13,181 nucleotides of DNA, from positions 1 through 13,181 of the forward strand of contig JAJONP010000053.1 in assembly GCA_021323555.1 (NCBI GenBank), in the 5' to 3' direction. The translations under genes and the position numbers were made by a program. The DNA is from Gammaproteobacteria bacterium. Its GTDB lineage: Bacteria > Pseudomonadota > Gammaproteobacteria > DSM-16500. A model generated the notes under the pieces. The model saw only the letters and a program-made list of their open reading frames with translations, ran no database searches and was not told the DNA's origin. Positions 3,624 through 10,930 of the stretch are shown here, piece after piece (positions within the stretch are counted from its first letter, which is position 1; the number at the start of each line of letters is the position of its first letter).

Positions 3624-5021
3624 ATGGACACTTCTACTGTTAAATTAAAACCGATGATTTTTATTATGTCTCCGCCGCATTCAGGCTCTACTTTGCTGCG
3701 GAACATGTTGGCACAACATCCTAAACTTTTTAGCCCGCCAGAACTTTATCTTTTATCATTCACCACCATGGGGGAGCGGCATAAAGCTTTTTGGGATCGG
3801 ATTTGGTTATTAAAAGGTTTAATTCAAACTTTCCAAGAAATTTATGACATTGATTACGACACAGCCGCTGCCATGATTAAACAAATGGAGGAACAAGATC
3901 TTCCTACGGTATTAGTCTACGCAATGATTCAAGCCAAAATTGGCGATCGTATTTTAGTGGATAAATCACCAATGAATGCTGGGGATTTTACGAATCTTGC
4001 CGTAACCATGGAAGCTTTTAATCGCCCTTTATTGATTCATTTATATCGCCATCCTTTATCGGGTATTAATACTTACATGCGTCGACCAGACCAAATCCAA
4101 AAATTGAGTAAACCTGAAGAAGAAGTCACGCATGATGAATGGTGTGCTATTCAGCGGGCAGGGGAGAATACCTGGCTAGGCTCGCATATTTCTATGTTAG
4201 TCTTTAAGCAACACCACCCAGAACATTATTACCCAATGCAATATGAAGCTTTGGTCAAGCATCCTGAAAAAAGCATGGAAGATTTTTGTAAATTTGCTGG
4301 CTTAGATTTTGATGTCAAAATGCTAAATCCTTATGGCAATGTGGATCGAGCTAAAATGCAGCGTGCAACGCCTAAAGAATTCCCGATGGGGGACCCCGAT
4401 TTTTATAAACATGAATCGGTCGATGCAGATTTAGCCAATCGTTGGAAAGAAGTCAATCTCCCTCAGGCAGTTGATAAATCTACCCAAATGCTTGCGGGCT
4501 ATTTTGGCTATCATTTTCCTAAAAATTATGTACGCCATACAGATCACATGTTGAAGCGTTTAAGCAAACAAAAAGAAATTGAAACCGGCGTGAAAATTAA
4601 GCCGCCTAAACTAAAATATTACCCTGTTAAAGTTGGGGAAAAAACTGTTCAAGTTCCTGCATTTTCTGCTAAAGAAGCTAAAATACTACTAACCAGTATG
4701 TTACAAGATGCAACAAAATTATCAGAAGAAAAAGCACTGTTAGAAATGTTAGGCAGCCTGCGCAAAAAAGCAGCATTAAAACAATTTAAATTAGCACGCG
4801 AAGCAAAAGTGGATCAAATACCAGACATTGAAACAGAAAATGCTAGCGTTAAGCGCTATCAAACCCTAGTGCAAGGGCAAACGCTTTGCGTACAAGGTTT
4901 AGATCAATCTGGCCAAGTTGTCGCACAAAGAACCTTGCATGGTGGAAAGCCCATCATATCATTGCCAGCACAAAATGCTGAGGGAGTTTCTCCTTTGACA
5001 ATGATCATGAGAAATGGCTAG
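3624..5021 (+). CDS. PAPS-dependent sulfotransferase (Sulfotransfer_3 type) with a C-terminal extension
   Basis: This 465-residue protein is predicted to move a sulfuryl group from PAPS to an acceptor. The 5'-phosphosulfate loop is SPPHSGSTLLR (residues 16-26). PPELYLLSF (38-46), DKSP (113-116) and IHLYRHPLSGINTYM (138-152, with Arg142 and Thr150 placed to hold the 3'-phosphate) are family hallmarks. The closest style I know is the free-standing and polyketide-associated bacterial sulfotransferases (PPELxLLPFxTMxER). The catalytic domain seems to end near residue 305. About 160 further residues form a charged helical extension I do not recognise. There is no signal peptide, so it should act in the cytoplasm. 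The acceptor is unknown; nearby cysD, cysN and cysC supply the donor. The last 25 codons recur as decayed copies downstream. Confidence 0.9.
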   Translation: MDTSTVKLKPMIFIMSPPHSGSTLLRNMLAQHPKLFSPPELYLLSFTTMGERHKAFWDRIWLLKGLIQTFQEIYDIDYDTAAAMIKQMEEQDLPTVLVYAMIQAKIGDRILVDKSPMNAGDFTNLAVTMEAFNRPLLIHLYRHPLSGINTYMRRPDQIQKLSKPEEEVTHDEWCAIQRAGENTWLGSHISMLVFKQHHPEHYYPMQYEALVKHPEKSMEDFCKFAGLDFDVKMLNPYGNVDRAKMQRATPKEFPMGDPDFYKHESVDADLANRWKEVNLPQAVDKSTQMLAGYFGYHFPKNYVRHTDHMLKRLSKQKEIETGVKIKPPKLKYYPVKVGEKTVQVPAFSAKEAKILLTSMLQDATKLSEEKALLEMLGSLRKKAALKQFKLAREAKVDQIPDIETENASVKRYQTLVQGQTLCVQGLDQSGQVVAQRTLHGGKPIISLPAQNAEGVSPLTMIMRNG

Positions 5022-5039
5022 CCAAGATAAAAAGGCTAG
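5018..5039 (+). terminator. Weak stem-loop at the sulfotransferase stop codon
   Basis: Arms ctagcc (5018-5023) and ggctag (5034-5039) enclose a 10-base A-rich loop and are followed by TTTAATT. The first arm contains the stop codon. The structure recurs at the same place in units 2 (with one stem mismatch) and 3 (perfect). It may be a partial terminator that lowers read-through from the sulfotransferase gene into the paralogs. Confidence 0.4.
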
Positions 5040-5070
5040 TTTAATTAAGAAGCTTTTGTTAAACTTAATG

Positions 5071-8540: not shown

Positions 8541-10330
8541 TGCAAGAGGAATTAATGAATATCGTGGTAGTAGGTCACGTAGATCATGGCAAGAGCACAA
8601 TTATTGGTCGTTTGCTCGCCGACACGCATAGCTTGCCCCAAGGAAAATTAGAACAAGTTAAAGCAAATTGTGAGCGAAACTCCAAACCTTTTGAATATGC
8701 TTTTTTGCTTGACGCCTTAAAAGATGAACAAGCACAAGGTATTACCATTGACCTTGCTCGCTGCTTTTTTAAAACTTCCCAAAGAAAATATTTAATTTTA
8801 GATGCGCCAGGTCATAGCGAATTTTTAAAGAATATGATTACGGGTGCCGCCCATGCAGAAGCAGCTTTATTAGTGATTGACGCTAATGAAGGGATTCAAG
8901 AAAACTCTAAACGCCATGCTTATATGCTATCAATGTTGGGTATAAAGCAGCTTTTAGTCGTCGTGAATAAAATGGATTTAATCCAATATAGCCAAGAAAA
9001 ATTTAATCGAATTGTTGCCGATTATCGATTATTTTTAAATCACATTGGCTTAACGCCTGTTAATTTTATCCCTGTTAGTGGCATGCAAGGCGATTCCATT
9101 GTTGCTTTATCTAAAAATATTCCTTGGTATCAACAACAAACTGTTTTAGAAACTATCGATAGCTTTCAAAAATCGCAACCCCTAACGCAAAAAGCTTTTC
9201 GCATGCCGGTGCAAGATATTTATAAATTTACGAAAAAGCAAGATGATCGGCGTATCGTTGCCGGCCGAATAGAATCTGGCCAAGTTAGCGTTGGCGATAA
9301 AGTAATTTTTTATCCTTCTGGCAAAATGAGCACGATAGCTTCGATTGAAGCTTTTAACGCACCTAAAAAGCTTCAATCGATTGAAGCGGGTTATTCCATA
9401 GGTTTTACGTTAGCAGAACAGATTTATATTAAGCGAGGGGATTTGCTCGTTAAAGAACATGAACAAAAGCCAGAGATTGCCTCAAGGATTCAAGTAAGCT
9501 TATTTTGGCTTGGCAAATCGCCTTTAGTGATGGGCAAAGAATATTATTTAAAACTAGGCACAACAAAAGTCCGTGCGCATTTGGAAAAAGTCCTTCATGT
9601 TATGAATGCAGCTTCTCTTGAATCCAAAGCATCTACCACTGTCCAAAGTCATGAGGTTGCAGTATGTCTTTTAAAACTGCACTCTCCAATTGCCTTTGAC
9701 CGGCCTGAAAATAATGAACTGACCAGTCGATTTGTGCTTGTCGATAATTATGATATTGCTGGTGGCGGCATTATTCAGCATGCATTAGAAGATAATACCG
9801 ATTGGATGAGAGAAAAAATTCAAGAGCGCAATGCCAATTGGATAACCAGCGATATTTCGCGCGAAGAGCGGGCAGAAAAATATGGGCAATATCCTTCATT
9901 AATTATTATTACGGGTCAGAAGGGGAGTGGTAGAAAAACTTTAGCTAAAAGCTTGGAGCGTGCTTTATTTGCTCAGGGCAAAAAAGTGTATTACTTAGGC
10001 ATTGGCAATGTTATTTATGGTGTTGATGCGGATATTAAAAACACGGCACAAGAAACCCGCATTGAGCATTTAAGACGCTTTTCTGAAGTGTTAAATATTT
10101 TATTAGATGCTGGACAGATCGTCATCATTACCGCACTTAATTTGACACAAGATGAAGTCAATTTTATTAAAGAAGCGACTTTATGTCAGCGCTTATTTAA
10201 AATTTGGATGGGTCAAGAAAAAACCACGGATATCCAAGAAAATCTATGGATAAAAGATAAGTTGATTAGCCCAGAGGAATTAGTCAATATTCAAATGTCG
10301 TTAAAAAATAAAATCAATGTAAGTGAGTAA
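8540..10330 (+). CDS. cysN: Sulfate adenylyltransferase subunit 1 (GTPase) fused to a degenerate APS-kinase domain
   Basis: The N-terminal part is an EF-Tu-like GTPase that drives APS formation with CysD: GHVDHGKST (12-20), DAPGH (88-92) and NKMD (143-146) are intact, followed by two beta-barrel domains. From about residue 455 a second nucleotide-kinase-like domain begins, as in CysNC and NodQ fusions. Its Walker loop reads GQKGSGRKT (459-467) instead of GLSGAGKST. The catalytic DGDNxRHGL stretch has become GIGNVIYGV (487-495), losing both Asp and the Arg. I infer this domain is inactive as a kinase. I chose ATG 8540 because AGAAGGA (8525-8531) lies 8 bases upstream and the cysD stop overlaps it; ATG 8555 with GAGGA is an alternative. 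At 596 residues it is longer than CysN alone (about 475). Confidence 0.93.
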   Translation: MQEELMNIVVVGHVDHGKSTIIGRLLADTHSLPQGKLEQVKANCERNSKPFEYAFLLDALKDEQAQGITIDLARCFFKTSQRKYLILDAPGHSEFLKNMITGAAHAEAALLVIDANEGIQENSKRHAYMLSMLGIKQLLVVVNKMDLIQYSQEKFNRIVADYRLFLNHIGLTPVNFIPVSGMQGDSIVALSKNIPWYQQQTVLETIDSFQKSQPLTQKAFRMPVQDIYKFTKKQDDRRIVAGRIESGQVSVGDKVIFYPSGKMSTIASIEAFNAPKKLQSIEAGYSIGFTLAEQIYIKRGDLLVKEHEQKPEIASRIQVSLFWLGKSPLVMGKEYYLKLGTTKVRAHLEKVLHVMNAASLESKASTTVQSHEVAVCLLKLHSPIAFDRPENNELTSRFVLVDNYDIAGGGIIQHALEDNTDWMREKIQERNANWITSDISREERAEKYGQYPSLIIITGQKGSGRKTLAKSLERALFAQGKKVYYLGIGNVIYGVDADIKNTAQETRIEHLRRFSEVLNILLDAGQIVIITALNLTQDEVNFIKEATLCQRLFKIWMGQEKTTDIQENLWIKDKLISPEELVNIQMSLKNKINVSE

Positions 10331-10333
10331 GCT

Positions 10334-10930
10334 TTGAAAAATATTTATTGGCAAGAAAACAGTATTAGCCAGCAAGAGCGATATAGCTTATTGAAGCAAC
10401 GCGGCATTGTGGTATGGCTTACTGGCTTATCTGGTGCAGGAAAATCAACCCTTGCTTTTGCATTGCAAAAAAAACTTTATGAGGCAGCTTATTTGACCTA
10501 TTGCCTTGATGGTGATAATTTGCGCCATGGTTTAAATTCTGATTTAGGATTTAGTAACCAAGACCGTAAAGAAAATATCCGCCGTATCGCAGAAGTGGCC
10601 GCTTTATTTAAAGATGCTGGCATAGTTACACTCGTCTCATGTATTTCTCCTCACGAAGAAATGCGTGAATTTGCAAAGAAGCTTATTGGCCATGAAAGTT
10701 TCATTGAAGTCTATGTCAAAGCTTCATTAGCCACTTGTCAAAAGCGTGATGTTAAAGGCTTATATGCAAAAGCACAGGAAAATAATATCACAGATTTTAC
10801 AGGCATTTCCTCTGGTTACGAAGAACCACGTCATGCGGATATCACCATAGATACTGACCTGCAAGATTTAGCCAGTTCAGTTTCCACTATTTTTGACCAT
10901 TTAATCACATTAATTAAGTGTGTAGATTAG
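10334..10930 (+). CDS. cysC: Adenylyl-sulfate (APS) kinase
   Basis: This 198-residue enzyme phosphorylates APS at the 3' position to give PAPS, the donor for sulfotransferases. All family motifs are present: GLSGAGKST (31-39), LDGDNLRHGL (58-67), DRKENIRRIAEVA, DVKGLYAKA and FTGISSGYEEP. It starts with TTG 10334, only 3 bases after the cysN stop and with a poor ribosome-binding site, so translation is probably coupled to cysN. The TTG reading is supported by the conserved NIYW start. Its completeness next to the degenerate domain in CysN indicates that it supplies the APS-kinase activity. Confidence 0.95.
   Translation: MKNIYWQENSISQQERYSLLKQRGIVVWLTGLSGAGKSTLAFALQKKLYEAAYLTYCLDGDNLRHGLNSDLGFSNQDRKENIRRIAEVAALFKDAGIVTLVSCISPHEEMREFAKKLIGHESFIEVYVKASLATCQKRDVKGLYAKAQENNITDFTGISSGYEEPRHADITIDTDLQDLASSVSTIFDHLITLIKCVD

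Follow-up and report, generated by a model that had tools for sequence, protein, structure and literature searches.

Contig JAJONP010000053.1 of a gammaproteobacterium, a 13-kb stretch (13,181 nucleotides) referred to as the window below, carries on its forward strand a row of genes that together could make an activated sulfate donor and transfer its sulfuryl group. The row opens with a sulfotransferase (ST) of the CurM/olefin synthase (OLS) type (3624..5021, 465 amino acids, of which residues 1-300 form the catalytic domain and 301-465 an extension), continues with three secreted paralogs, A (5091..5666, with its start at the ATG at 5091 or 5100), B (5946..6509) and C (6915..7478), and ends with cysD, a distinct subfamily of the small subunit of ATP sulfurylase (7659..8540), cysN, the GTPase subunit with a C-terminal domain resembling adenylyl-sulfate (APS) kinase (8537..10330), and cysC, the APS kinase itself (10334..10930). 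A preliminary description of the stretch had proposed these genes as one sulfonation module with secreted acceptors, and its gene calls were borne out: all seven are open reading frames (ORFs) on one strand, and the enzyme families were matched. The cluster is real and coherent, a new variant assembled from known parts. What survives of the proposal is a linked unit for making and using 3'-phosphoadenosine 5'-phosphosulfate (PAPS), supported by the tight spacing of cysD, cysN and cysC, by an adjacency that predates the duplications described below, and by the occurrence of the same cysDN subfamily near a sulfotransferase in Gemmatirosa, whereas the analogy with tyrosine sulfation is unsupported. 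The reading that we prefer, and to which we give about as much credence as doubt, is an operon-like sulfonation module in which the ST acts on a non-peptide hydroxyl and the secreted proteins, which share four cysteines, stand beside the product.

Duplication history of the cluster

The strongest argument for treating these genes as a unit comes from a 252-nt repeat that covers the tail of the ST gene together with the following spacer and the leader of the secreted gene, and that is present in three copies on the forward strand (4922..5173, 5777..6028 and 6746..6997). Within it, the last 24-25 codons of the ST gene remain readable upstream of B (5799..5876, forward strand, 68% protein identity, tblastn E 2e-6) and again upstream of C (6768..6845, forward strand, 67%, E 3e-5). 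The DNA downstream of A, B and C likewise has blocks in common, which after C extend to some tens of bases from cysD. The simplest reading of this pattern would be a tandem duplication of a unit reaching from the tail of the ST gene to the region upstream of cysD. Because the duplicated unit runs between these two points, the ST gene, a secreted gene and cysD would have been adjacent already before the duplications, and it is this prior adjacency that argues best for their forming one unit.

The secreted genes duplicated in place, and their mature parts diverged while the leaders and the upstream DNA stayed nearly identical. Over the 100 bases upstream of the paralog genes 93-95 positions agree, and all 27 leader codons (counted from the second ATG) are without a single base change between A and B; at the end of the leader this near-identity gives way to divergence, with a dS of 0.75-1.07 and a dN of 0.36-0.78 between the mature parts of A and B (synonymous and nonsynonymous substitutions per site) and C more distant. 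The identical leader codons of A and B point to gene conversion or exchange of parts. Positive selection on the mature parts was considered but is not shown, dN being smaller than dS in all three pairs (dN/dS for A and B 0.36/0.75 and 0.78/1.07). Between B and C the window also holds a G+C-rich insert (6570-6670) that is lacking after A and C and has no match in Rfam.

The sulfotransferase

The ST matches PF13469 (E 5.6e-25) and aligns with the STs of CurM and OLS over the full domain, at 4e-52 (residues 7-302) and 1e-46 (residues 9-300), respectively. Its predicted fold groups with the same two enzymes, with an identity of 36-38% in the structural alignment, and the matches shown in fold searches were sulfotransferase folds spanning residues 6-301. 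Two features set it apart. The C-terminal extension of 165 residues is common, among the relatives listed, only to P0002, which lies on a contig of 2 kb, and the Arg of the 5' PAPS-binding motif and the Ser of the 3' PAPS-binding motif expected of a CurM/OLS-type ST are both missing: position 19 is His, as opposed to Arg in 107 of 110 sequences (the ST's own entry counted), and position 150 is Thr, as opposed to Ser in 106 of the 108 sequences with a residue there. Both substitutions recur in a relative that is 54% identical. Elsewhere among the highly conserved positions that were examined, e.g. 21-23, 40, 113, 114, 142-144, 181, 184 and 208, the ST agrees with the majority. PMC6637879 (section 12) describes the Arg and Ser corresponding to the two replaced residues as essential in sulfotransferases. 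Judged by sequence and predicted structure, the ST is thus of the CurM/OLS type, in a sub-clade of its own marked by the extension, His19 and Thr150.

A scan of the genome collection with the single protein found no relatives of the ST, and an alignment-based scan found 240, the best 80 loci of which were kept; several of these loci share one genome, so that they are not 80 independent cases. Identity to the ST among these best 80 is at most 41%. Queries for acyl carrier protein (ACP) or alpha/beta-hydrolase match somewhere in 77 of the 80 by tblastn (the exceptions are L048, L051 and L074), cysC matches in three (L020, L032 and L047), and neither the ST extension nor a secreted relative was found in any at E 1e-4. 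Matches to cysN in two loci (L049 and L077) were short (28% identity over roughly 390 bases) and were not counted, and a match of paralog A to L046 (5.5e-4) lies in a different reading frame from the ST there and was judged to be chance. The window's CysD had no match at 1e-50 in 44 genomes with a CurM-type ST (drawn from 45 of the 80 loci, L006 left out), a search run without a positive control, and the ST was absent from the single genome and from the 14 genomes sampled in two orders near the host, a result that for the same reason is uninformative. In a locus from Neptuniibacter marinus (L070, 5699-10870), a CurM-type ST follows a gene for an outer-membrane efflux protein, and another ORF, at 5699-6607, resembles, by eye, a second sulfotransferase.

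Among plasmids the ST retrieved ten records, three of them CurM-like polyketide synthase or non-ribosomal peptide synthetase proteins and seven weak Azospirillum matches. On an Agrobacterium vitis plasmid a CurM-type ST forms part of an adenylation-carrier-ST-thioesterase protein; about 2.3 kb ahead of its gene, on the opposite strand, lie cysD and cysN, and the secreted family has no match there. The preliminary description had held that wide co-occurrence of the ST with cysDNC in the absence of the secreted family would speak against its proposal; we find ST and cysDN so combined at this one locus, while cysD has no match in any of the 80 other CurM-type loci.

The PAPS-forming genes

Each of the three cys genes exceeds the cutoff of a family model: cysD scores 346.9 bits with NF003587 (cutoff 195), cysN 354 bits with TIGR02034 (cutoff 336.1) and cysC 242.2 bits with TIGR00455 (cutoff 138.7). 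CysD and CysN are nevertheless divergent, since other models of their families stay under the cutoff (236.8 against 396.6 for TIGR02039, and 481 against 715 for NF004035, respectively). CysD is 76% identical to its counterpart in Gemmatirosa, 75% to an Ilyobacter plasmid protein and 44% to that of E. coli, with corresponding values for CysN of 50%, 55-57% and 33%; matches to CysN at 1e-90 occur in 25 of 369 sampled Gammaproteobacteria and do not exceed 37% identity. In this CysN subfamily the C-terminal kinase-like domain has a degenerate Walker A motif, and the separate CysC retains an intact one (motifs read by eye), so that cysD, cysN and a cysC that is competent, as far as its motifs tell, are present together.

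A small membrane protein of the DUF2061 family (PF09834, E 8.1e-21), encoded on the forward strand at 2553..2780, is a possible additional member of the module. The Gemmatirosa CysC carries this domain as an N-terminal fusion, as opposed to the separate gene of the window. Scanning viral contigs with CysD gave 28 loci, none of which matches the ST or the secreted family; DUF2061 lies 0.4 kb before cysD in one of them (L125) and about 3.7 kb from it in another (L117). A further locus of the viral collection (L113, 10001-12651) holds cysD (48-49%), cysN (43%) and cysC (45%) together, its cysD and cysN being closer to the window's set than those of E. coli are.

The secreted four-cysteine family

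Paralogs A, B and C are proteins of 187-191 amino acids that share a nearly identical hydrophobic leader and four cysteines. NCBIfam gives no match for them and Pfam none above the cutoff, only two weak ones (E 0.045 and 0.061), and the predicted model of A has a mean confidence score (pLDDT) of 44. Facing away from the cluster, on the reverse strand at 2920..3438, lies the gene of a divergent leader-bearing protein, D, whose four cysteines align with those of A-C; it matches their profile weakly (hhalign E 0.0081, probability 4.9) and may, on this alignment, be a fourth paralog. The leaders of all four were judged by eye to be Sec-like.

These proteins had been characterized as tyrosine-rich and cysteine-rich, and neither label fits. 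After residue 30, Tyr makes up 3.7, 5.1 and 4.5% of A, B and C; eight other proteins encoded in the window have 0.7-4.8%. This is no enrichment, and four Cys in some 160 residues indicate a domain with conserved cysteines. Only two tyrosines are invariant across A-C (Y66 and Y135 of A), and their surroundings in the alignment have no acidic setting in common; in D, Tyr is absent beyond residue 30, and with it both of these.

Searches of 5.8 billion sequences with paralog A and with a profile of A-D returned four proteins altogether, each corresponding to one of the window's own, although the method requires shared 5-residue words and remote relatives may escape it. Three of them (P0111, P0112 and P0113) are identical to A, B and C, and the fourth (P0114) is identical to D at 171 of 172 positions; they lie on contigs of up to 989 kb, another of the longer ones measuring 149 kb. 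In the 369 Gammaproteobacteria two marginal matches to the family (E 7.7e-4 and 0.0098) were discarded, both having an in-frame stop, and a DNA pattern derived from the leader is absent from the viral contigs.

The acceptor

If the preferred reading holds, CysD-CysN together with CysC would convert sulfate and ATP into PAPS, a step well supported by family membership, and the ST, as a cytoplasmic enzyme of the CurM/OLS type, would use PAPS to sulfonate a hydroxyl group. To judge from the enzyme family, this hydroxyl would most likely be a non-peptide one and not a protein tyrosine, for instance on an acyl chain, lipid or glycan whose biosynthetic genes lie elsewhere in the genome; the exported four-Cys proteins may then be partners, carriers or protectors of the sulfonated product, or may work alongside it. 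Several observations weigh against this reading. The secreted genes sit between the ST gene and cysD; His19 and Thr150 depart from the family, so the donor site of the ST may differ; and no non-peptide acceptor is in sight, because no gene for ACP, thioesterase, glycosyltransferase or acyl-chain metabolism was recognised in the ORFs of the window that were scanned for families (17 of the 29 listed with Pfam, ten of these also with NCBIfam). Nor is the cysDN subfamily tied to sulfonation, since its Ilyobacter copy adjoins an annotated adenylyl-sulfate reductase subunit.

Going by its family, the ST would act on an acyl or other non-peptide hydroxyl; the placement of the secreted genes and their amplification speak for the secreted proteins. 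It is conceivable, though we consider it doubtful, that the exported proteins are themselves the acceptors, with the ST sulfonating Tyr, Ser or Thr on unfolded cytoplasmic precursors ahead of Sec export and duplication yielding a set of sulfated exported variants. The location of their genes would then make sense, as would the constant leader in front of a variable mature part and the two tyrosines kept in A-C, and the family has been recovered only as the window's own sequences, never yet apart from the module (the context on the longer contigs was not read). The ST, however, appears to be of the CurM/OLS kind and not of the tyrosylprotein sulfotransferase kind, the tyrosine content is ordinary and in D falls to none after residue 30, the invariant pair lacks a shared acidic sequence, and no dedicated exporter was recognised in the ORFs scanned, where no ABC transporter or peptidase family exceeded its cutoff. 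Sulfation of tyrosine, which the preliminary description had favoured, is on these grounds possible but not favoured. One could also speculate, with rather little confidence, that a CurM-type ST turned from acyl-chain chemistry to the sulfonation of an exported four-Cys family in its own operon, diversified behind a constant leader, which would be a second, unrelated origin of secreted-protein sulfation in bacteria besides RaxX. Very few systems of protein sulfation are known in bacteria. In this cluster a PAPS-making set has stayed linked, through duplications, to an acyl-chain-type ST whose donor-site residues are unusual and to an exported orphan family, and the question of the acceptor is therefore directly testable in vitro; the interest of the ST sub-clade, with its extension, His19 and Thr150, and of the cysDN subfamily does not depend on which acceptor holds.

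We regard two further explanations as improbable. The cysDNC genes might serve ordinary sulfate assimilation elsewhere in the genome, next to an ST and secreted genes that are unrelated neighbours, as the Ilyobacter set with its reductase subunit, ferredoxin-family protein and symporter would suggest. Against this stand the shared orientation of the genes, an adjacency older than the duplications, a Gemmatirosa set that lies near a sulfotransferase, and the lack of any recognised reductase gene: the preliminary description had noted the absence of sulfate-reduction genes, which holds for the scanned ORFs of a window of just 13 kb, the PAPS_reduct match of cysD being to the domain to which CysD itself belongs. 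More improbable still, the ST might lack normal catalysis and be retained as a binding or regulatory protein, perhaps by way of its extension. Such a loss would agree with the replacement of the two residues termed essential, but His19 and Thr150 keep the potential for charge and the hydroxyl, respectively, both recur in the 54% identical relative, and the other conserved positions examined hold the majority residue.

Comparison with known systems

The likeness to the CurM and OLS STs covers the whole catalytic domain, in sequence and in predicted fold. The window's enzyme differs from them in standing alone, in its extension and donor-site residues, and in having no ACP or thioesterase recognised in the scanned ORFs of the window. 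A close counterpart of the cysDNC set is on a plasmid of Gemmatirosa kalamazoonensis (L111), ordered cysN, DUF2061-cysC, cysD, which shares the degenerate kinase domain of CysN, the DUF2061 domain and a sulfotransferase gene nearby. That sulfotransferase belongs to Sulfotransfer_4 and is not of the CurM type, genes of the acyltransferase and inositol-monophosphatase families accompany it, and nothing in the locus matches the secreted family; inspection by eye of the listed ORFs, five stretches of which were checked with Pfam, brought no APS reductase to notice. Plasmid pILYOP02 of Ilyobacter polytropus (L110) carries similar CysD and CysN proteins together with cysC, but differs in the genes alongside, which encode a DASS anion symporter, a ferredoxin-family protein and the annotated adenylyl-sulfate reductase subunit, with no sulfotransferase among the 31 features of an incomplete gene table.

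In rhizobia, NodH with NodPQ is a sulfotransferase with PAPS genes of its own, the acceptor being a lipo-oligosaccharide. The window has the same combination and adds a secreted family, of which we know no equivalent in the NodH/NodPQ system. RaxST and RaxX of Xanthomonas resemble the window in that a sulfotransferase gene adjoins the gene of an exported polypeptide, but RaxST probably belongs to another ST grouping, and the leaders in the window are Sec-like and not of the double-glycine type, with no exporter recognised beside them. The Rax system had also been cited as a precedent for a sulfotransferase paired with dedicated PAPS genes; that parallel is loose, as the PAPS enzymes of Xanthomonas are, according to PMC6637879, core housekeeping genes outside the rax cluster, in contrast to their linkage with the ST here. 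No comparable cluster for sulfation of secreted bacterial proteins was found in the literature surveyed by title and the opening of the abstract.

Transcription signals, host and flanking genes

Upstream of the ST gene lies a promoter-like site with 10 of 12 matching positions (3562..3590, forward strand), which is a lead only: two more of this quality occur in the stretch, and promoter-like sites overall number 21, compared with 22.1 expected in shuffled DNA. No terminator-like site was found on the forward strand from the ST gene onward until one within cysC, at 10509. The promoter-like site and the terminator gap are consistent with a single transcript but are no proof of one.

At 1e-30 the carbonic anhydrase gene at 1020-1643 has matches in 73 of the 369 sampled Gammaproteobacteria. 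The top 22 of them, those of at least 245 bits (our own cut), are 56-66% identical and come from genomes of 1.3-3.0 Mb; CysN is above the family cutoff in one of these 22, compared with four of 14 control genomes, and in seven relatives the window's flanking genes had no match beside the carbonic anhydrase. The host, going by this one marker gene, is probably a gammaproteobacterium whose genome is small and whose cys genes were acquired. Rfam and tRNA scans of the window gave no matches. The ORFs at 192-989 and 12249-12689 are orphans, with no Pfam match above the cutoff, and PADLOC reported one weak match, to the latter (E 0.0045).

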